The notes beneath the pieces were generated by a model. The model was not told where the DNA came from and ran no database searches. It was given only the letters and a program-made list of their open reading frames with translations. Shown here one piece after another: positions 6,183 to 23,800 of a stretch of 25,538 nucleotides of DNA (the first letter of the stretch is position 1; each line of letters starts with the position of its first letter). Location of the stretch: the IMG/VR virus record IMGVR_UViG_3300031227_000379, positions 1 through 25,538 of that record, one strand, 5' to 3'. This DNA is from a virus. The translations under genes and the position numbers were made by a program.

Positions 6183-6595
6183 TTTCCTGTCATTATTTTA
6201 GGGTTATCAAATGTATTTGCTACTATTCTATATTTATCTTTTTGTTCTTTTTCGTTTACTACAACCCACATGGATCCTCCTCTTTCTTGTAAATATAATC
6301 CATATGCTGCTGTATATATTTTTCCTTTTATATCATCTTCATAATATTTAAAATCACCAAACATAAATACTTCATAGTTTTCAGTTATATCTCCAGTATA
6401 TATTTTTTTATCATCTATATCTTTTATACCTATATATTGACCTATTGATTCAGGAATAACTTCAATTACTTTATATCTTCTGTTTTCCATAAATGAAATT
6501 AAATGTCTATCTGAAAGAGAATCATATACATAATATCCATATACCCAACCTTTATTTGTAATTCTTTTACCTCTATACTCAATAATAGTGTCCAT
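6179..6595 (-). CDS. YopX-family phage protein
   Basis: A 138-aa protein with the recurrent YopX layout: N-terminal YRGKRITNKGWVYGYYVYD, a central VIPESIGQYIGIKD followed by DDKKIYTGDI, and a beta-rich C-terminal half with GSMWVVVNEKE. These are the sequence hallmarks of the YopX family, common in phages and prophages of Firmicutes and Bacteroidetes. The molecular function is not established. It lies in a run of small accessory genes and overlaps the next gene by 4 bases. Confidence 0.85.
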   Translation of the reverse strand: MDTIIEYRGKRITNKGWVYGYYVYDSLSDRHLISFMENRRYKVIEVIPESIGQYIGIKDIDDKKIYTGDITENYEVFMFGDFKYYEDDIKGKIYTAAYGLYLQERGGSMWVVVNEKEQKDKYRIVANTFDNPKIMTGK

Positions 6596-10214: not shown

Positions 10215-10697
10215 TTATATTAATATTATTTTATCAAATCCTTCTGGTAATATGGGTATGTCATATTGAACATTAAATTTCTCCCAAACTTCATTCCAGA
10301 CTTCTTTGCTTATATTGCCGTGATTATTTGATAGTCTTCTTTCAATCGAATCTTCTTTATTAAGATACGGCATTACTAACGCTATAACTTCATAGTCTTT
10401 TTCTTTTGCTAGTTTAATATATTTAATTCTATTTTTCCTTTTAGCATTTACTTCGTCAATAACAATATCTGATTTTAATTTAAGTAATGAAGTAAAGAAA
10501 ACCATAATTGTTTTTTGAATTATAGGTTCATATTTATAATCAAATAAATAATCTCCACTTCCTAGAGCATATCTCAATGCATCTCTTGATAATACTATTG
10601 CTCCTTTTTTCTTATAGTATTTACATAATGTTGATTTACCAGAACCTATGTTTCCTATCATAAGATATAATTTTGGTTTATCATTAGTATTCTGCAT
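10215..10697 (-). CDS. P-loop kinase, polynucleotide 5'-kinase-like
   Basis: A 160-aa nucleotide-binding protein. Walker A is GNIGSGKST (15-23), then LSRDALRYAL (S37-R38-D39, the acceptor-side Asp of T4 Pnk-type kinases), DIVIDEVNAKRKNRIKYI (a DE/N-R lid-like segment) and a C-terminal ERRLSNNHGNI with arginines that could close on ATP. The order matches the kinase half of T4 polynucleotide kinase, without the phosphatase half. A HAD-type phosphatase is encoded separately at 6604-6918. It could phosphorylate DNA or RNA 5' ends in repair. A deoxynucleoside kinase is the main alternative. It overlaps the upstream gene by 14 bases. Confidence 0.8.
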   Translation of the reverse strand: MQNTNDKPKLYLMIGNIGSGKSTLCKYYKKKGAIVLSRDALRYALGSGDYLFDYKYEPIIQKTIMVFFTSLLKLKSDIVIDEVNAKRKNRIKYIKLAKEKDYEVIALVMPYLNKEDSIERRLSNNHGNISKEVWNEVWEKFNVQYDIPILPEGFDKIILI

Positions 10698-15141: not shown

Positions 15142-18100
15142 TTATTTTCTTCCTACGATTAAATATTCATGGGATTTAGCAGTTATTTTTCTGTCTTCAA
15201 CTTGACTTGCAAAACAATTATGGCAAATAATTCCTTCTGCAATATAAGTGTGATTTTTATTTATTTCTAAATTATAAACATAATCATTGAATTTATTTTT
15301 TTTCATAGATACTATGCTTCTAACAGTTATATCTCCTATTTTAAAATCATATCGTTTAGTTGTATTTTGGGTTATTTTTTTATTAAATGTTTTTTCAACA
15401 AAATCTATACATTTATTTTCCGCTAATCTTATTTGATATGTTTTATTTTTACTTAATTTGGGATAATATTCTCGTAAATAAAAACTATAACCTATGCTTC
15501 CTAACAATGATTGAGTTTCTTTTATTAATATTTCATTAGAAACACCAAATGAAATATCGTTACCAGTTAAACATCCATCCCCACGAAACAGACCTATAAG
15601 TAAATTTTCTTTTATGTTTTTATTAGAAATAAAAATATGTTTAGGTATACTTTTTTTATCAAATCCTTTGCCTAAATAACAATCAAAGAATTCTGCTAAA
15701 ATACTACTATAAATATATATTGTACTCCATTTACCTATTTTAGAATTTTTAATTATACTTTCTAATCCAAATAGTTCTTTTACTAAATTACAAACGTCTG
15801 TAATATAATTAATTTCTTTCTCATGAAAAGTAAATCTAAGACCTTTACTATTAGAACATCCTTCACTCAAATAATAACCAATCAAACGAGCAAATTTTTC
15901 ATCTATTTTTATTTTATTTGGTATATATTTTAGATTTTTTTTGTTTAATTTAAAACATATTTTATTGTTCTTTAAAATATATTTTTCTGTTTTTATATAA
16001 TTGAAAACATTTAAAAATATATTGTTTTTTTCAATAGTACTGCTTTGTGTTGATATAAAATCCCCCTCTTTTAATTCACTTATTTTATACCATTTTAAAA
16101 TCTTTTTATTTAATTTGTTCTTACAACCCGAACAACTCTTACCAGAATAACCAAAACAACTTCGGGTTTTGTCTTTATAGCAAACTAAATCTTTTCTTTT
16201 TATAGATAATACAGGATGTTCTCCTGTTATTTTAATATTATCACATAATCCTTTTACTTTTAAATCTATAATATCGTTTTCTTTTCTTTTAAATACTTTT
16301 GAAACCTTCTGTAATTTTCCGACATCAGTAAATACTTTTTCTCCTACTTTTATATCTCCTATATTTTTATATCCGTTTTCAGTTAAAACTTTAGTATTAA
16401 AACTAAAACAGGCTCCCATAGCACTCGCCCACTCCACAACAATTATATCGTGCATATTAAATCCTGCTTTTTTAAATAATTCTATAACATCAGAATGATA
16501 GGTATATAAAATACCGTTTTTTCTAAAATCATTTACATTAAAAATACAATATTTATCTCTTTTTAATACTCTATGACATTCATTAACTACTCTTCCTAGT
16601 CCATTTAAAAATTCTCCATATGAATGATTATATCCTAACTGTTCTTTTTCATCCCCATAGTATTCTAAATCCCAATAAGGTGGCGAATTGCCACACCAAC
16701 AACCTTTACCTTTTCTCCTAACAAATAATTTTTGATTTGGTATAGAACAACAATAAACAAATCCATCATATTTTACTTTATTTATTTCTGTAATTTGCCT
16801 TTCACATCCATTACCAATAACAATACTATATGAGTCATGTTTTTTAAATATTTCTCTTCCTCTTATAAACTTCCTTCCACAATCTACTCTTTTTTGCATA
16901 TTAGCTTTTTTACCTAGTTTAATAACTAATTCCATAAAGTCGGTTGCTAGTTGAGCAGATGAAGTAAAATAAGTATTATTGGCTCCTTTGCCATTTCCAT
17001 CTCCTAACATTAAAGAATTAAATAAACAAATTAAATATTTTCTATCTAAAGATAAAAATTCTTTGGGGATATATTTTTCATATGACTTCCCAAGTGGGTT
17101 TAAATATAAATATAACTGTTTACTATTAAACGAAAGAGTATCTTTTTTGATTGTTCCTTTAAATCCATATTTGCTCATTGTCTTTTTAATATTTTCTAAG
17201 ACCTTTATATCTCTTTGGCAAATACTAACAGAGTAATTGCTTCCTTTTTTTAATTTCCCTTGTTTTCTATTATAATAACACCATCCCTCAGATATATACC
17301 AACCTAAAAATGTCATCCAGTCTTCCATAAGTATATGGTTGTCTTTTCTTATGTGGTTTTTTTCAGTAATAATACTCGGCAATATAAAAAAATCTTTATT
17401 TACTCCAATCCAATTAGCAGACATCTTAATTTTATCTTGCTTTTTACATTTAGTAACATTTAATAGCTCATAATCTTTTTTATGACGTTTGCGAATATAC
17501 ATATTATGATTGGGAGTTACTAATAAATTAAATCCTTTTTTGTTTATTACTTCATACATTATTCCTTTATATTTATTTTTCTGTATTTCAATTAATTTAA
17601 CATAAATTAAATTATCTCCTTCATCTAAAGTTGCAATTTTATCAATCATTTTTAAATTTTTAAATAACTTAAATCCCCCGTCTGTTAATACTTCTGTATC
17701 ATCTGAATAACATGTATAACACATGTCCATTGAATTGTCTTCTTCATCTAATTTTTCAGATGATTGTTCTTTAAGAGTAATTGTATTTGAAGGTGTAAAT
17801 ATTAATTTCTGATTTCCTTTGCCCATTATTTCATCTTTAACAGTATTATTAAATTTCATAAACTCTTTACTAACATCATACCCAATATAATCTCTCTCTA
17901 ATTCATATGTTACTTGCATACGAGAATTGTGTCCACAATTTTTAACAATAACTCCATTAGCAACAAAATTATGGAATTCTTCTACATTCATATTGTATGT
18001 ATCTATTTTAGTTGGATATTCTTCTACTGATTTAACAGTATGATTATAATTAAATCTTTTTGTAGAGATATTAATAACAGTATTTTTATGAACACCCATT

Positions 18101-19263
18101 TTTAATGCTATTTTTTCATATGAAAGATTTCCTTCAGATATTAAATGTTGTATTTGATTTACATATGTTTTATTTTTACGTTTCTTCCAGGATTCACTCA
18201 TCTTTTTCTTTGTTTCAAAACTATGTTTTCCCCCAACATTTCTTCCTTTACTTGCAATTCCTATCTGTTTTTTTGTTACTGTTGAATGTTTTTTACCAAA
18301 AAAAGGATTTTCTAATCCTGTAAATATTTTAGATAAATGTTTTTTCTGTTCATCTGAAGGAATATACATTATTTTACCTTCATGATGCATTTTAGAATGT
18401 TTTCCAAAATCCTTTACTTTTAAATTTTCTACACTATCGTTAGTAATATCTTCATCTTTATGATGCACACATTCAATAAATTCTTTGGTTTTTAATTTCC
18501 GACCTAATATTTCTTGCATTATAAAAATACTCTGTCTCATATATTTACCATTATTTAATCCTATTATCCATCTACCAGATTGCTTATGTATTTTTCTATA
18601 GAAGGGCATTAAACTATCTCCTGATTTCAATAATTTAGCTTCTATATATTTGCCGTTTCTAAGCATAAATTTATGGTCTGGAGTTACAAATATACTATTG
18701 TCGTTATCTAACTTTACTTCCAATACAGTTGCATTTATTCTTGTTTTGCGTATTTGATTTGCTTTACGTAACCTTAATTGCACTCCATCACTACAATATA
18801 CATATGGTTCTTGTCCGACTAAATTTTTAATCGGGAAGTCACCATTTGGAGTTGAAATTATTGTATCTCCAGATACACACATTGGGTCTAAAACTGTATC
18901 TCCTTTTTCAGAATAAAACAATACTATTCTTCTGGCTAGTGCAGGAGGAAAAGTAGATAACCCACCATCTTTACCTCTAATACTTTTAGATGAAGCATTG
19001 TAAGCTTTCCATTGTTGCTGTGATTTCTTTTCAACTTCTTTTTTAGTTCCGTCTTGTAATTCTATTTCTACCTTATGACCATAGCTTAATTTCTTATGTT
19101 TCTGTATTGCAATATTATGTTGTTTTTTAGCTTCAAGTTCTATAACGTGTTTACCCCAAGAATAGTCTGGTTTATAAATACTTTTAGGTATTTCTCCGTA
19201 TTTAGATAATATCTGACTTCTAATTTCTCTTGACTTTACTAAACTTTCATCATTTTTACCCAT
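15142..19263 (-). CDS. DNA methyltransferase interrupted by three inteins
   Basis: A 1373-aa reading frame. Removing three inteins (residues 129-442, 518-859, 952-1349) leaves a 319-aa AdoMet-dependent N4-cytosine or N6-adenine DNA methyltransferase. Motif I is VLDPM-CGHNSRM (AdoMet binding), motif IV is CYT-SPPYWDLEYYGD (catalytic), followed by RVLKRDKYCIFNVND, and the C-terminus is RKITAKSHEYLIVGRK, typical of these enzymes. Motif I precedes motif IV, the reverse of beta-class enzymes. SPPY favours N4C; N6A is possible. Each intein cuts a conserved motif, so the enzyme is inactive until spliced. The start has a GAGGAG site and is joined as TAATG to the upstream small gene. It probably protects phage DNA or modifies host or phage promoters. 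Confidence 0.92.
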   Translation of the reverse strand: MGKNDESLVKSREIRSQILSKYGEIPKSIYKPDYSWGKHVIELEAKKQHNIAIQKHKKLSYGHKVEIELQDGTKKEVEKKSQQQWKAYNASSKSIRGKDGGLSTFPPALARRIVLFYSEKGDTVLDPMCVSGDTIISTPNGDFPIKNLVGQEPYVYCSDGVQLRLRKANQIRKTRINATVLEVKLDNDNSIFVTPDHKFMLRNGKYIEAKLLKSGDSLMPFYRKIHKQSGRWIIGLNNGKYMRQSIFIMQEILGRKLKTKEFIECVHHKDEDITNDSVENLKVKDFGKHSKMHHEGKIMYIPSDEQKKHLSKIFTGLENPFFGKKHSTVTKKQIGIASKGRNVGGKHSFETKKKMSESWKKRKNKTYVNQIQHLISEGNLSYEKIALKMGVHKNTVINISTKRFNYNHTVKSVEEYPTKIDTYNMNVEEFHNFVANGVIVKNCGHNSRMQVTYELERDYIGYDVSKEFMKFNNTVKDEIMGKGNQKLIFTPSNTITLKEQSSEKLDEEDNSMDMCYTCYSDDTEVLTDGGFKLFKNLKMIDKIATLDEGDNLIYVKLIEIQKNKYKGIMYEVINKKGFNLLVTPNHNMYIRKRHKKDYELLNVTKCKKQDKIKMSANWIGVNKDFFILPSIITEKNHIRKDNHILMEDWMTFLGWYISEGWCYYNRKQGKLKKGSNYSVSICQRDIKVLENIKKTMSKYGFKGTIKKDTLSFNSKQLYLYLNPLGKSYEKYIPKEFLSLDRKYLICLFNSLMLGDGNGKGANNTYFTSSAQLATDFMELVIKLGKKANMQKRVDCGRKFIRGREIFKKHDSYSIVIGNGCERQITEINKVKYDGFVYCCSIPNQKLFVRRKGKGCWCGNSPPYWDLEYYGDEKEQLGYNHSYGEFLNGLGRVVNECHRVLKRDKYCIFNVNDFRKNGILYTYHSDVIELFKKAGFNMHDIIVVEWASAMGACFSFNTKVLTENGYKNIGDIKVGEKVFTDVGKLQKVSKVFKRKENDIIDLKVKGLCDNIKITGEHPVLSIKRKDLVCYKDKTRSCFGYSGKSCSGCKNKLNKKILKWYKISELKEGDFISTQSSTIEKNNIFLNVFNYIKTEKYILKNNKICFKLNKKNLKYIPNKIKIDEKFARLIGYYLSEGCSNSKGLRFTFHEKEINYITDVCNLVKELFGLESIIKNSKIGKWSTIYIYSSILAEFFDCYLGKGFDKKSIPKHIFISNKNIKENLLIGLFRGDGCLTGNDISFGVSNEILIKETQSLLGSIGYSFYLREYYPKLSKNKTYQIRLAENKCIDFVEKTFNKKITQNTTKRYDFKIGDITVRSIVSMKKNKFNDYVYNLEINKNHTYIAEGIICHNCFASQVEDRKITAKSHEYLIVGRK
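15217..16410 (-). other. Intein 3 of the methyltransferase, LAGLIDADG type (398 aa)
   Basis: Residues 952-1349. It starts at Cys (CFSFNTKVLTENG, block A), has TGEHPVL (block B, TxxH), LAGLIDADG motifs LIGYYLSEG and LLIGLFRGDG, and block F/G YVYNLEINKNHTYIAEGIICHN, ending in the canonical His-Asn before Cys+1. The extein on both sides joins as MGA-CFASQVEDRKI. A Cys-rich insert (C-x7-C-x7-C-x2-C, residues 1018-1037) after block B may bind zinc. All catalytic splicing residues are present, so splicing is expected; homing activity is likely from both acidic motifs (SEG and GDG). Confidence 0.93.
16687..17712 (-). other. Intein 2 of the methyltransferase, LAGLIDADG type (342 aa)
   Basis: Residues 518-859, inserted between CYT and SPPYW of catalytic motif IV. 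Block A is CYSDDTEVLTDGG, block B is LLVTPNHNM, LAGLIDADG motifs are FLGWYISEG and LFNSLMLGDG, and the C-terminus is VYCCSIPNQKLFVRRKGKG-CWCGN followed by Ser+1. The penultimate residue is Gly, not His, a form I associate with inteins ending VRRxGKxxWCGN-S in phage proteins. The extein Ser+1 is the first residue of SPPY, so the residue needed for splicing is also a catalytic-motif residue. Confidence 0.92.
17938..18879 (-). other. Intein 1 of the methyltransferase, HNH type (314 aa)
   Basis: Residues 129-442, between DPM and CGHNSRM of AdoMet motif I. Block A is CVSGDTIISTPNGD, block B is IFVTPDHKFM, block F/G is NMNVEEFHNFVANGVIVKN with Cys+1. The penultimate residue is Lys. Instead of LAGLIDADG it holds an HNH nuclease: FIECVHHKDEDITNDSVENL (H-H-N), then NUMOD3-like repeats (NPFFGKKHSTVTKKQIG and GGKHSFETKKKMSE) and a helix-turn-helix (YEKIALKMGVHKNTVINI). 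This is the layout of group I intron HNH homing nucleases such as I-HmuI, moved into an intein. Confidence 0.92.
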
Positions 19264-20418: not shown

Positions 20419-20450
20419 TAATATAGAATAAAAATCACCAATGGCAATTA
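20419..20450 (-). promoter_or_regulatory. Promoter candidate upstream of 20397 gene (shared bipartite motif)
   Basis: TAATTGCCAT, 12 nt, TTCTATATTA on the minus strand: -35 TTGCCA (20447-20442), 16-bp spacer, -10 TATATT (20425-20420). The boxes are identical to those at 5102-5133. The -35 side overlaps the stop codon of the clamp loader gene, so the promoter would restart transcription for the GNAT and methyltransferase block. Confidence 0.7.
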
Positions 20451-22562
20451 CTTTTTTTCTTTTCTTATTTTACATAACATATTGAAAAATAAAGAGTTAT
20501 AGTCATATACACCCCCAACTCTTTCCTCAATATTGATTATTTCTTCAAAATATTTGATTAAAATATCTTCAGGTATATCTCCTGCTATTTTTTCGTATGT
20601 TTTTACCCTATAAGGAGCTACATTTGTTAGTGGCATATTCATTTTTATTTTTAGACAAGTCATAAGGTCATACTTTAAAAAATTAATAAAAGTATTAATA
20701 TCAGGATAATTTTGTTTCCAACCAAGAAATGATTTCCATATTAATGTCAAATCTTCTCTTGCAACTCCATCTAAGAAATCAACATTTACTTCATCAGAAA
20801 GAAATTCTCTTATATCTCCTGAATTACTATATTGTTCTAACAGATGTATCGCTTGTCTTAAATTTGTATCAGAATTCCTTGCTATTGTCCATATCGTTTT
20901 TTCATCTACATCCATTTTTAATTCTTTTGTTAGTTCTTCTATTCTATCAAATATATCTTTCCATCTAATAGGATTAAGCTTATATGTCTGACATCTTGTT
21001 TGTATTGTTTTTAATACTTTGTTTAATTCAGTTGTGCATAAAATCCAAATAAAATCATTAGATGCATCTTCTAGTGGTTTAAGTAAACAATTCCAAGCCG
21101 GCTTGGATAACATATGGCAATTAGAGACAATATTGCTTAACCCTAAACTATAATTATTTCCAACTAGAAAATTATGATTATCTTCAACCTCAATATCAAA
21201 TACTTCTACAGTCCATTTATGTTTTTTGTAATCAATATTTTTAATTTTGGCTGGTTTTATTTCATAAGATTTAGTACAATTATTAAAAAAGTCATTATCA
21301 AAAGGCAACAAATCCCCTGCTAATTTATATCTCATGGAGGGAATAACATAGGGACTTATATTTTTAAATAATTTTAAACTACTTTCTTTTGAAAATCTAA
21401 TAGAAGGATATTTACCTGTAATATAGGCTGTATTTTTTAATTTAAATTTTTTGTTAAGAAACATAGAAAACATTTTTACTTCTTCATTAGAAAAACCACA
21501 AATATGTAAATGTGCATTTCCTGATTTAGACATACTTCCATCGTCCATATATAAAAAAGCTAAACTAATATAAGTAAATTGATTAAATATTTTTTTATTA
21601 ATATATTTTTTCTTATTTTTATAAATAAGAGGATAAATATCTGTTAAAAACCATGAGCTTTTTGTATTGTAACCTGTAAATTTATCTCCAAAAGTATCTT
21701 TATTTATTCTGTCTGTGGTTGATAATTTACTACAGTCTATTACTTTAGATATTATGTCCCTTTTATATGTAATATATTTTAATTGTTTATAAGAATGATT
21801 CATTTTTAATCTTACTGTATTTTTCATTTTTCCTAAATAGCCATCTCCAAGTATTGTTCCTAATAAAACCTGTTTAATATTTGAAGGAATTTTATTCCTA
21901 ATTTCATATATTATAGATTTCTTTTGTAGTTTGTCCGCTCTTTTATATCCCTTATCTGTAAGTATTTTATGATTATCTGTACATGTAAATTTGTTACCAT
22001 GTTGGGTTTTAATAGTAATTGTTTTTTGTAAATTTACTTTTTTTCTAAAATAACCTATAATTTTTTTGGATTCAATTTTATTTGTTTTTAAATTATAAGA
22101 AAGAACTTTTTTTTCTTTTTTATGTTTTACTATATTTCCAATTTTTTCATATGTCATATCTTCAAGAAGAACAGGAGTAGAACCTAAAAAACATTCATCA
22201 AGTAAGATACCTTTATATTTAGATATTGGAGATTTATAGTATATTTCTTTACTTAATGTCCTAATATCATCTATACCTCTATTATCAGAAGCATTTATTT
22301 CAAGTAAATCAAATTTGAAATTTAGACATGAAGGACATTTTAGACATGGATTCCCTTCTTTTGATAAATCTTGACAATTTAAACTCATAAAAAACAATCT
22401 AGCTAAAGTAGTTTTACCTATGCCACTTTTACCTGAAAACAAATATGAATTAGCTAATCCTTTTTTATTTATTGCTTGTGATTTCAATATCTTCACAACA
22501 TGTTCTTGACCTTTAATTTCATTCCATTTTATTGGTCTGAAAATATTATTAAAATCTTTCAA
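20448..22562 (-). CDS. Clamp loader ATPase (DnaX/RFC-like) interrupted by an intein
   Basis: A 704-aa frame; after splicing (residues 124-481 removed) a 346-aa AAA+ clamp loader. The start is TTG at 22562 with AAAGGAGAATAATA. The N-terminus matches RFC/DnaX: FRPIKWNEIKGQE, SYLFSGKSGIGKTT (Walker A, 44-52), Cys at 63, 73, 76, 79 (CPSC-type zinc module of DnaX), ASDNRGIDDI, then GILLDE-CHMLSKPAWN (Walker B DECH) and sensor ILCTTELNK with IQTRCQ. It loads the sliding clamp for the polymerase; no clamp gene is visible in this window. The tRNA-like RNA lies just upstream and may be co-transcribed with it. Confidence 0.93.
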   Translation of the reverse strand: MKDFNNIFRPIKWNEIKGQEHVVKILKSQAINKKGLANSYLFSGKSGIGKTTLARLFFMSLNCQDLSKEGNPCLKCPSCLNFKFDLLEINASDNRGIDDIRTLSKEIYYKSPISKYKGILLDECFLGSTPVLLEDMTYEKIGNIVKHKKEKKVLSYNLKTNKIESKKIIGYFRKKVNLQKTITIKTQHGNKFTCTDNHKILTDKGYKRADKLQKKSIIYEIRNKIPSNIKQVLLGTILGDGYLGKMKNTVRLKMNHSYKQLKYITYKRDIISKVIDCSKLSTTDRINKDTFGDKFTGYNTKSSWFLTDIYPLIYKNKKKYINKKIFNQFTYISLAFLYMDDGSMSKSGNAHLHICGFSNEEVKMFSMFLNKKFKLKNTAYITGKYPSIRFSKESSLKLFKNISPYVIPSMRYKLAGDLLPFDNDFFNNCTKSYEIKPAKIKNIDYKKHKWTVEVFDIEVEDNHNFLVGNNYSLGLSNIVSNCHMLSKPAWNCLLKPLEDASNDFIWILCTTELNKVLKTIQTRCQTYKLNPIRWKDIFDRIEELTKELKMDVDEKTIWTIARNSDTNLRQAIHLLEQYSNSGDIREFLSDEVNVDFLDGVAREDLTLIWKSFLGWKQNYPDINTFINFLKYDLMTCLKIKMNMPLTNVAPYRVKTYEKIAGDIPEDILIKYFEEIINIEERVGGVYDYNSLFFNMLCKIRKEKK
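21120..22193 (-). other. Intein in the clamp loader, LAGLIDADG type (358 aa)
   Basis: Residues 124-481, inserted between LLDE and CHMLSK, splitting the Walker B DECH. Block A is CFLGSTPVLLEDM, block B is NKFTCTDNHKIL, LAGLIDADG motifs are VLLGTILGDGYL and LAFLYMDDGSM, and block F is VFDIEVEDNHNFLVG. The C-terminal segment NNYSLGLSNIVSN is longer than the usual block G, and the penultimate residue is Ser rather than His; Asn481 and Cys+1 are present. ATP hydrolysis needs splicing because the catalytic Glu (E123) stands next to the cut site. The endonuclease acids (GD and DD) are intact. Confidence 0.93.
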
Positions 22563-22583
22563 TATTATTCTCCTTTAATTAGA

Positions 22584-22715
22584 TGAACTGTAAGCAGGAT
22601 TCGATACCTGCATAATTAGCTTCAAATGAGTATTATATCCCGAGAACTTCAGCTCATAAGACTAATTCGAGGTTTGGTTACCGTCTTGTGCGTCTAGTTC
22701 CGCCACTACAGTTCA
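22584..22715 (-). ncRNA. tRNA-like structured RNA with own promoter (class II, Leu-type features)
   Basis: A 132-nt element closed by perfectly paired 9-base ends, TGAACTGTA and TACAGTTCA. The 5' half GTGGCGGAACTAGACGCAC is the D-arm block of class II tRNALeu with the usual GGT of the D-loop missing; GCG pairs with CGC. The 3' end is GCAGG-TATCGAAT-CCTGC, a T-arm with an 8-base loop instead of 7. Where the anticodon and variable arms should be, AAGAC...GTCTT could form an anticodon stem but with a 20-nt loop, competing with a long helix AATTAG/CTAATT, CTT/AAG, ATGAG/CTCAT. No normal 7-nt anticodon loop exists. It lies just downstream of the CCA-adding enzyme gene. It could be a non-decoding stable RNA, comparable in size to T4 RNA C and D, or a rebuilt tRNA. 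Confidence 0.7.
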
Positions 22716-22748
22716 ATTTATTTATAAATATCATTTAACTTACAAACC

Positions 22749-22777
22749 ATTATATCATAATATAAATAGTTTGTCAA
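22749..22777 (-). promoter_or_regulatory. Consensus sigma70 promoter for the tRNA-like RNA
   Basis: TTGACA (22777-22772), a 17-bp spacer and TATAAT (22754-22749) on the minus strand, a perfect match to both consensus boxes at the optimal spacing. The start would be about 7 bases further, near 22742, roughly 27 bases before the 5' end of the paired RNA. It lies between the CCA gene stop (22781) and the RNA. Confidence 0.9.
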
Positions 22778-22780
22778 TCA

Positions 22781-23800
22781 TTATTTTGTTTTCTTTTTAA
22801 ACTTATCATCATATGGTTTAAGTATACTATCTTCATTTAAATGATTTAATACTAAATCTTTTACTACTTTTCTCCTATCATTACTCCATTTTAAATAATT
22901 TGCTATTTTCTCTACTATCTCTGAACCTAGTCTAGCATGGTGTATATAGTTACTCCTATCAACCTTATTTGTTCTTACAAACGGCTTTGCTATATCATGT
23001 AATAAAGCAGACCACCTTAAATTTAAGTCTTTAGGAGTAGAATAAACAACCTGTTTTGTATGTGTCCATAAATCATAGTCATGGTATTTACTATTTTGAT
23101 TATAATCTAATTGTAATGCTAGTTCAGGAATCATAAAGTTAAATAATCTGGTTATCATTAAAAAATCTAATCCTAAATTAATATTATCTGACAACAATAA
23201 CTTATCTAGCTCTATCATCCATCTTTCTTTACTTACTGTTAATATTCTATAATTAAGTTCTAATGTTTTTTTCCATATTGCTTCATCTACATTTATTAGT
23301 TTTAATTGAGAAATAAATCTAGCGGCTCTTAACATTCTCAATGGGTCTTCCTTGAATCTTAATTTTGTATTACCTACACATTTTAATGTTCTTGTTTCCA
23401 AATCTTCTCTTCCATTAAAGGGGTCTATATATTTATTTCCTATTTTGGCTATTGCATTAATAGTAAAGTCCCTTCTACTTAAATCAGAATGTAGGTCTTT
23501 TACAAATTCTACATTTGGTTTTCTACAATTCCTTTTATATTCTTCAGTTCTAAATGCTGTTAATTCTATATAATTCCCTTCAATTTTAACACCCAAAGTA
23601 CCAAATTTTTTGCCAATTAAATATGCCCTCCTACCCTCGTTTTTGATTGCCTTTTCAATCTCGTCAGGAGAAAAGGGACAAGCAAAATCATAATCTTTTG
23701 GTTCTACTCCTATTAATTCATCTCTAACGCAACCCCCTACAGCATAAACAGGATATATGATTTTTTTAACTTTATTATATATATATTGTAATTTTGTCAT
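22781..23800 (-). CDS. cca: CCA-adding enzyme (tRNA nucleotidyltransferase) with HD domain
   Basis: A 339-aa class II enzyme that adds or repairs the 3' CCA of tRNA from CTP and ATP. The palm has VGGCVRDELIG (GG 22-23) and DYDFA (catalytic D36, D38). RRDFTINAI and YIDPFNGREDLETR follow, then FKEDPLRMLRAARF and ERWMIELDKLL (neck and body template helices). A C-terminal HD domain (WTHTKQVV, then WSALLHDIAKP with H268-D269) is attached, as in some bacterial CCA enzymes with phosphohydrolase activity. ATGA overlap joins it to the small HTH gene, and it is directly upstream of the tRNA-like RNA, its possible substrate. Confidence 0.94.
   Translation of the reverse strand: MTKLQYIYNKVKKIIYPVYAVGGCVRDELIGVEPKDYDFACPFSPDEIEKAIKNEGRRAYLIGKKFGTLGVKIEGNYIELTAFRTEEYKRNCRKPNVEFVKDLHSDLSRRDFTINAIAKIGNKYIDPFNGREDLETRTLKCVGNTKLRFKEDPLRMLRAARFISQLKLINVDEAIWKKTLELNYRILTVSKERWMIELDKLLLSDNINLGLDFLMITRLFNFMIPELALQLDYNQNSKYHDYDLWTHTKQVVYSTPKDLNLRWSALLHDIAKPFVRTNKVDRSNYIHHARLGSEIVEKIANYLKWSNDRRKVVKDLVLNHLNEDSILKPYDDKFKKKTK

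Follow-up and report, generated by a model that had tools for sequence, protein, structure and literature searches.

A tRNA-like phage RNA without an anticodon arm points to a widespread class of phage RNAs with an exchangeable middle

Introduction

YrlA (Rfam RF02553), known as a tRNA-mimicking non-coding RNA module that is also present in some phages, is one of the RNAs with which the element reported here can be compared. Others are tmRNA, the leucine tRNAs and rnaC and rnaD (species C and D) of phage T4. The manA RNA (Rfam RF01745) was described by Weinberg et al. in 2010 as a likely riboswitch and not as derived from tRNA, and potential 5′ UTRs were reported as its location (PMC2864571).

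The element lies in a stretch of 25,538 nucleotides of viral DNA (IMG/VR record IMGVR_UViG_3300031227_000379), which in its full length is called the window below; positions are those of the window. A first-pass annotation made from the letters had described at this place a tRNA-like RNA with its own promoter beside a gene for a CCA-adding enzyme. We compared the element with described RNAs and searched for its relatives in viral contigs that are largely derived from metagenomes. The occurrence of a tRNA-like frame with a swapped middle across unrelated phages points to a class of phage RNA that is widespread but undescribed; a literature search that reached few subscription papers did not turn up an account of one.

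Results

The element (22584–22715, minus strand) was delimited from its sequence and its homologues as a tRNA-like RNA of 132 nt without an anticodon. All its features are given on the minus strand. It is closed by the 5′ strand TGAACTGTA (22707–22715) and the 3′ strand TACAGTTCA (22584–22592), which were read from the sequence and, as the first-pass annotation had claimed, form nine Watson-Crick pairs; G22706·T22593 adds to this stem on the inside, and the homologous stem covaries. A 7-bp tRNA-like acceptor is made of ACTGTAG (22712–22706) and TTACAGT (22593–22587) without an encoded CCA. By inspection, the 3′ end has TCA in place of CCA, which is itself paired, and positions 73–75 are located inside the extended closing stem. 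The D-arm block GTGGCGGAACTAGACGC (22690–22706) is that of a tRNA-Leu lacking GG(T), again as first read, and consists of acceptor position 7, U8, G9, the D stem GCG/CGC and the D loop GAACTAGA, from which GG is missing. Sequence and homologues likewise define the T-arm GCAGG-TATCGAAT-CCTGC (22594–22611), and the 8-nt loop reported for it is present. A 5-bp/7-nt anticodon arm is absent on inspection. The place of the anticodon and variable arms is taken by an insert of 78 nt (22612–22689), a region that is hypervariable and swapped among the homologues.

ARAGORN detected no tRNA in the whole window, and Rfam gave no match at its gathering scores; relaxing the threshold to E ≤ 10 added nothing credible. 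The predicted fold of the element has −38.6 kcal/mol (z −3.4). A 7-bp closure with a T-like hairpin occurs 0–12 times per shuffled copy of the window. Because this combination is not rare in shuffles, the architecture proves nothing for a single sequence; it is the homologues that prove the element. Other copies of the window element itself were near-identical only.

Relatives were sought by the exact 17-nt D block, by the T-arm alone, by the D-arm only and by combined patterns. In the viral contigs, the exact D block retrieved the same phage (L006, L007, L012) and three unrelated contigs (L001, L003, L004) in which a different middle is enclosed by the same closing stem and T-arm hairpin with its 8-nt loop; L010 and L011 are doubtful candidates, and the further matches are due to chance. 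A degenerate D-arm pattern, GTGGNGGAACTAGACNC, was discarded; its extra matches were coding sequence and other chance matches only. The T-arm GCAGGTANNNAATCCTGC alone yielded at least 119 stretches, and among the matches listed a 7-bp closure was located upstream of it in 80 of 124 occurrences, compared with 5.7% when the partners were exchanged. Because the search patterns prescribed certain stretches, the conservation of these stretches is partly a matter of construction. As GCAGG/CCTGC was fixed in the T-arm-based sets, covariation of the T-stem cannot be read from them; the D-arm-only search returned the T-stem variants GCAAG, GTAAG, GCTGG and CCAAG. Frame RNAs whose T-arm has a stem of 6–7 bp and, for example, TGCAAAT or TGAGAGT as its loop were seen at L167, L187, L192, L241, L197, L190, L186 and L259.

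For the closing stem, 53 distinct elements in other phage contigs were located by GTGGCGGAA and the T-arm only, with the acceptor left unused. All seven acceptor pairs form in 44 of these elements and six or more in 51, whereas the control with exchanged partners gave seven pairs in 1.1%. The 44 fully paired elements have 44 different stems, with several types of Watson-Crick pairs at positions 1–6. The covariation score on 46 distinct frames was 0.638, whereas shuffles gave 0.128 and sliding never gave more than 0.135; the rows are related to varying degrees, and neither the score nor the counts are probabilities. Pairing is thus conserved in related phages for the closing stem, a result on which the first-pass annotation had made its reading depend. 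The element is almost certainly a structured RNA. The 44 different paired stems, together with the structured inserts and the compensatory changes given below, speak for the re-purposed fold proposed earlier and against decay. A canonical anticodon arm was found in none of the 41 testable relatives of class b, as we term the window-like elements. In this class the closing helix extends 3 bp or more past seven in 11 of 53 elements and CCA is encoded in 3 of the 53, and tRNA-type 3′ maturation is therefore regarded as putative.

The long helix that had been placed at the core of the insert, and which corresponds to the minimum-energy fold, is probably wrong. The family data favour two interleaved helices, of which the proposed helix H1, derived from the family architecture, pairs AAGA (22684–22687) with TCTT (22661–22658). 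The 5′ strand of the proposed helix H2, AATTAG (22662–22667), would lie within the loop of H1 and form a pseudoknot with the 3′ strand CTAATT (22614–22619), which ends 2 nt before the T-arm. In the window insert alone this pair of helices is not significant (p 0.17). An accessory hairpin, ATGAG/CTCAT (22626–22657), is also located within the insert. Across the relatives the insert measures 20–200 nt, and in the shortest relatives, with a total of 68 nt, it consists of a small hairpin only. Interleaved helices at p ≤ 0.05 were found in 30 of 103 non-redundant inserts and two separate hairpins in 11, and a helix strand ends exactly 2 nt before the T-arm in 43% of the inserts versus 6% in shuffles; thresholds and offset window were chosen on the same data, and the p-values are descriptive. 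Among 44 inserts with such a strand, 41 pair it far upstream. In tRNA-Leu, the variable arm likewise stops 2 nt short of the T-arm. One group (L194, L240, L242, L244) has compensatory changes at two insert pairs. Antisense action on the phage's own genes is unsupported, since insert matches to own phage DNA were not above shuffles (p 0.17).

The insert can be replaced as a block, judging from metagenome contigs, on which all the swaps rest. In L067 and L105 the flanks are 96 and 99% identical, whereas the similarity of the inserts is 0.48 versus 0.50 for shuffled sequence. The pairs L042/L134, L050/L110, L106/L154 and L194/L232 have likewise kept flanks and frame with the insert replaced, and the breakpoints are located at the edges of the D-arm and the T-arm. 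Other near-identical pairs retained their insert (L117/L154, L169/L213, L187/L259), and identical inserts were also found in dissimilar flanks (L168/L202, and L182 within the tandem pair of L221). Rapid change of the insert is not universal: the phAPEC8-type version is 95–100% conserved over 85 records.

Combined overlapping patterns matched 27 stretches among the viral contigs, whereas 257 Gb of genomes from bacteria and archaea contained two, each on a MAG contig. Among named phages, the element is carried by phAPEC8 relatives (about 85 GenBank records, 95–100% identical, mostly unannotated), by cyanophage S-CAM9 and by Levilactobacillus phage ENFP1. In phAPEC8, S-CAM9 and ENFP1 it occupies a gap between annotated tRNA genes, and in S-CAM9 a UUCG hairpin is present where the anticodon arm would be. 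The phAPEC8 version had no match in 5,426 E. coli genomes. The IMG/VR loci have no neighbouring gene in common and in their majority are located away from tRNA genes; for several elements the next predicted gene is on the opposite strand, according to crude ORF calls. At L036, ARAGORN called a tRNA with the anticodon TTA (6183–6258, an ochre suppressor) beside a class-b element and tRNA-Ile, and at L156 an ARAGORN tmRNA call with Rfam tmRNA matches (2175–2533) is located shortly downstream of a class-b element.

The D-arm-only search returned a larger set composed of class b, a class a and a few elements with other T-arms. Class a has GG in the D loop, a normal 7-nt T-loop and mostly the acceptor AGTCAGG/CCTGACT, and three of its matches are genuine tRNA-Leu(UAA). 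The earlier observation that the GG of the D loop and the T-loop change together holds across this superfamily: elements with GG have a 7-nt T-loop in 64 cases and an 8-nt loop in none, those without GG in 7 and 14 cases, respectively (Fisher 3e-11, a value that ignores the relatedness between elements). L146, which was found by its T-arm and is outside the set counted, is a counter-example that keeps the full GGAATTGGTAGACGC together with an 8-nt T-loop. tRNA-Leu-like genes of 135–178 nt with no obvious anticodon arm, but with intact D-loop GG, a 7-nt T-loop and Rfam tRNA scores of 30–42 bits, are located on contigs that also carry elements, at L033 (605–739), L052 (1687–1839, minus strand) and L156 (1468–1645). 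Judged from the D block without GG(T), from L146, from these 135–178-nt versions and from the helix that stops 2 nt short of the T-arm, the frame very probably derives from tRNA-Leu. Several RNAs with the AGTCAGG-acceptor frame and different inserts are located beside normal tRNAs, including tRNA-Leu(UAA), at L166, L203 (8811–10034 in minus-strand coordinates) and L208. The crAss-like phage cr4_1 (L292, about 1442–1532) has an unannotated tRNA-like stretch that is closed by AGTAAG/CTTACT, has a T-loop of the normal type and may have an anticodon loop of 9 nt.

Upstream of the element, a perfect sigma-70 type promoter, TTGACA-17-TATAAT (22749–22777, minus strand), is the sole perfect match across the 25.5-kb window. 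The consensus given in the first-pass annotation is therefore real; a private promoter does not mark the family, however, being present in 2 of 51 relatives versus 1.2 expected. The upstream gene (22781–23800, minus strand) does encode the stated CCA-adding enzyme, a tRNA nucleotidyltransferase (Pfam PF01743, 1.6e-29; PHROG 2244), but its proposed partnership with the RNA finds no support. Among 46 records searched, many of them fragmentary, the enzyme is present in one, the window's own. In addition, both normal tRNAs of the window phage, tRNA-Tyr and tRNA-Thr, encode CCA, and positions 73–75 of the element are paired. The neighbourhood of the enzyme is probably incidental, and a related-locus search with it returned near-identical phages only. 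The enzyme gene is adjoined by RlaP, an RNA-repair nucleotidyltransferase (PF10127, 23921–24670), and a polynucleotide-kinase-like ATPase is located at 10215–10697; these two are possible RNA repair genes.

Immediately downstream of the element, a leader with an AAGGAG ribosome-binding site (22563–22583, minus strand) is followed by the clamp-loader gene (20448–22562, minus strand), which is DNA polymerase III delta′-like and contains a LAGLIDADG intein. Its start codon is 21 nt past the end of the element, and the scan found no terminator-like site between the two. A DNA methylase gene with three matches to intein splicing domains (15142–19263) is located on the same small contig as the clamp-loader intein.

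Discussion

In our preferred reading, which we hold at about even odds, the element does not decode but acts in trans as a scaffold RNA, built on a tRNA-Leu frame with an exchangeable insert that carries its specificity. This reading is favoured by the fixed arms and the swapped insert. D- and T-arm sequences that stay fixed while the acceptor stems are free suggest recognition of the elbow or a tertiary contact, and the swapping of a structured insert suggests a changing target. The parts of the reading differ in strength. The lack of a conserved neighbour gene and, in phAPEC8-type phages, S-CAM9 and ENFP1, the position in unannotated gaps that separate tRNA genes indicate that the element probably acts in trans, whereas we only lean towards the insert as the specificity domain, and a host defence or tRNA-handling factor as the target is a guess that may well be wrong. 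In such a scaffold, the acceptor-like closing stem, D arm and T arm would fold as a tRNA-like top half, and this frame would probably give the RNA stability. The host tRNA-processing enzymes RNase P and RNase Z probably release it from longer transcripts, and the frame would probably dock to something that recognizes the tRNA elbow. The exchangeable and often pseudoknotted insert, which occupies the position of the anticodon and variable arms, would carry the specificity. Block swaps of the insert, with the frame and the surrounding genes kept, could then track a changing target in the host or in a rival phage.

The strong conservation of the elbow beside acceptor stems that are free, the turnover of the insert and the position in tRNA clusters of several named phages would also fit a decoy or sponge, whose frame would be bound or cut instead of genuine tRNAs and whose insert would vary so as to evade or trap particular effectors. 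Several defences target tRNAs; Cas12a3, for example, is reported to cut tRNA tails (PMC12851939). However, anticodon nucleases would not be decoyed by an RNA without an anticodon loop, and encoded CCA is missing in most elements, so that we regard a decoy as rather unlikely. The distance of 21 nt to the clamp-loader start codon without a terminator-like site would be in line with a cis-acting leader that serves the downstream gene as a riboswitch or structured 5′ UTR, for which the potential 5′ UTR location reported for the related manA RNAs is a further argument (PMC2864571). Such a leader is nevertheless unlikely, because the neighbour genes vary by locus, several elements face a next gene on the opposite strand by crude ORF calls or are located between tRNA genes, and swaps of the insert leave the sequence downstream of it in place.

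A tRNA-like half that docks on the ribosome or EF-Tu and a pseudoknotted insert that reprograms translation would explain why the order of parts is that of tmRNA. We consider this improbable: the elements searched have no Rfam tmRNA match, CCA is mostly absent, many class-b helices extend beyond 7 bp, and the 68-nt members have room for a small hairpin only. These members are also too short for an ordinary tRNA with an intron, whose splicing would restore the anticodon arm. Cyanobacterial tRNA-Leu genes with group I introns exist and provide a precedent, but no Rfam intron family matched the window or the relatives' loci scanned, GG is missing from the D loop, the T loop is 8 nt long and none of the 41 relatives has an anticodon arm, which makes an intron the least credible of these explanations. 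tRNA genes are common recombination sites, and the exchange of insert blocks between identical frame sequences could be expected of an insertion landing pad or a degenerate tRNA-Leu gene without RNA function. This is in turn very improbable in view of an acceptor pairing that is kept through 44 different stems and of inserts that keep their structure, in one group with compensatory changes.

Returning to the trans-acting scaffold, a conserved tRNA-like frame with block-swapped inserts represents an unusual mode of RNA evolution, which suggests a target that compels the RNA to change. These RNAs escape tRNA finders and have consequently stayed unannotated even in well-known phages, including those of E. 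coli K-12. The phAPEC8 relatives are a laboratory-ready system in which the roles of phage tRNA mimics could be studied.

Relation to known RNAs

The elements resemble leucine tRNA (type II; RF00005) in U8, the D-arm block GGCGGAA..TAGACGC, the position of the T-stem and the spacing of 2 nt from the variable-arm helix to the T-arm. They differ from it in lacking an anticodon arm and the GG of the D loop, in their 8-nt T loop, in the 20–200-nt insert and in a CCA that is usually not encoded. With tmRNA they share a tRNA-like half that closes around a large pseudoknot-bearing insert; in contrast to tmRNA they are mostly far shorter and usually without CCA, and no Rfam tmRNA match fell on any element in the window or the relatives' loci scanned. 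YrlA (RF02553) matched none of the elements searched; its sole weak match (L159, 2572–2633) covers neighbouring tRNA genes.

The likeness to T4 species C and D that had been suggested stands as an analogy only: rnaC and rnaD are small, stable and phage-encoded, are comparable in size to the element and belong to a tRNA cluster, and rnaC has a T-arm. However, its T-loop has the ordinary 7 nt and no perfect 7-bp closure is seen by eye, and by the same comparison rnaD is without any of the frame. The frame covariance model R1 had no match in the T4 locus, where R1 sees little beyond a T-arm; owing to the long insert it detects the T-arm only, and it was not used for membership of T4 RNAs or manA. 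In the Pseudomonas phage PsgM04F (L162, about 1530–1560), AAACAGGGTCGCTCCCTGTAAGTCGTC directly follows the element and resembles the 5′ end of T4 rnaD, GAAACCGGGTCGCTACCGGTAAGTCGTC. From these letters, rnaD of T4 may be one member of a broader family of phage RNAs.

For manA, the consensus as BLAST query had no match in phages, and the Rfam model had no match to the window element at E ≤ 10. Against L034, the model gave 25.9 bits over positions 1–192, end to end, and against L114 23.4 bits, both under the gathering score of 55.2. In the alignment with L034, the closing stem, the GUG..GAAUAA block and the last hairpin with its loop UA...AAU correspond to the closing stem, D block and T-arm of the elements. 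The manA RNA of S-CREM1 (10215–10429; L164 1716–1930) is located directly between tRNA-Leu and tRNA-Asn genes. Its closing stem is similar, and it also has GTGACAGAATAAC and a hairpin with UA...AAU; it differs in an 11-nt T-loop. The same tRNA cluster contains a wcaG RNA, and both RNAs are filed as cis-regulatory. Marine and cyanophage distribution is common to manA and the elements, whereas the location in 5′ UTRs of metabolic genes is a trait of manA alone: the window element precedes the clamp-loader gene, and neighbours vary by locus. Judged from sequence comparison, manA and the elements are probably related, in a kinship short of membership. We speculate, with more doubt than confidence, that tRNA-Leu-derived frames with interchangeable pseudoknotted domains serve phages of several bacterial phyla as swappable effectors against hosts or competitors, a repertoire of the kind that the several RNAs of the related phages L166, L203 and L208 would form, and that manA is one branch of them. 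The manA RNA, a riboswitch candidate since 2010, would thereby gain a new reading.
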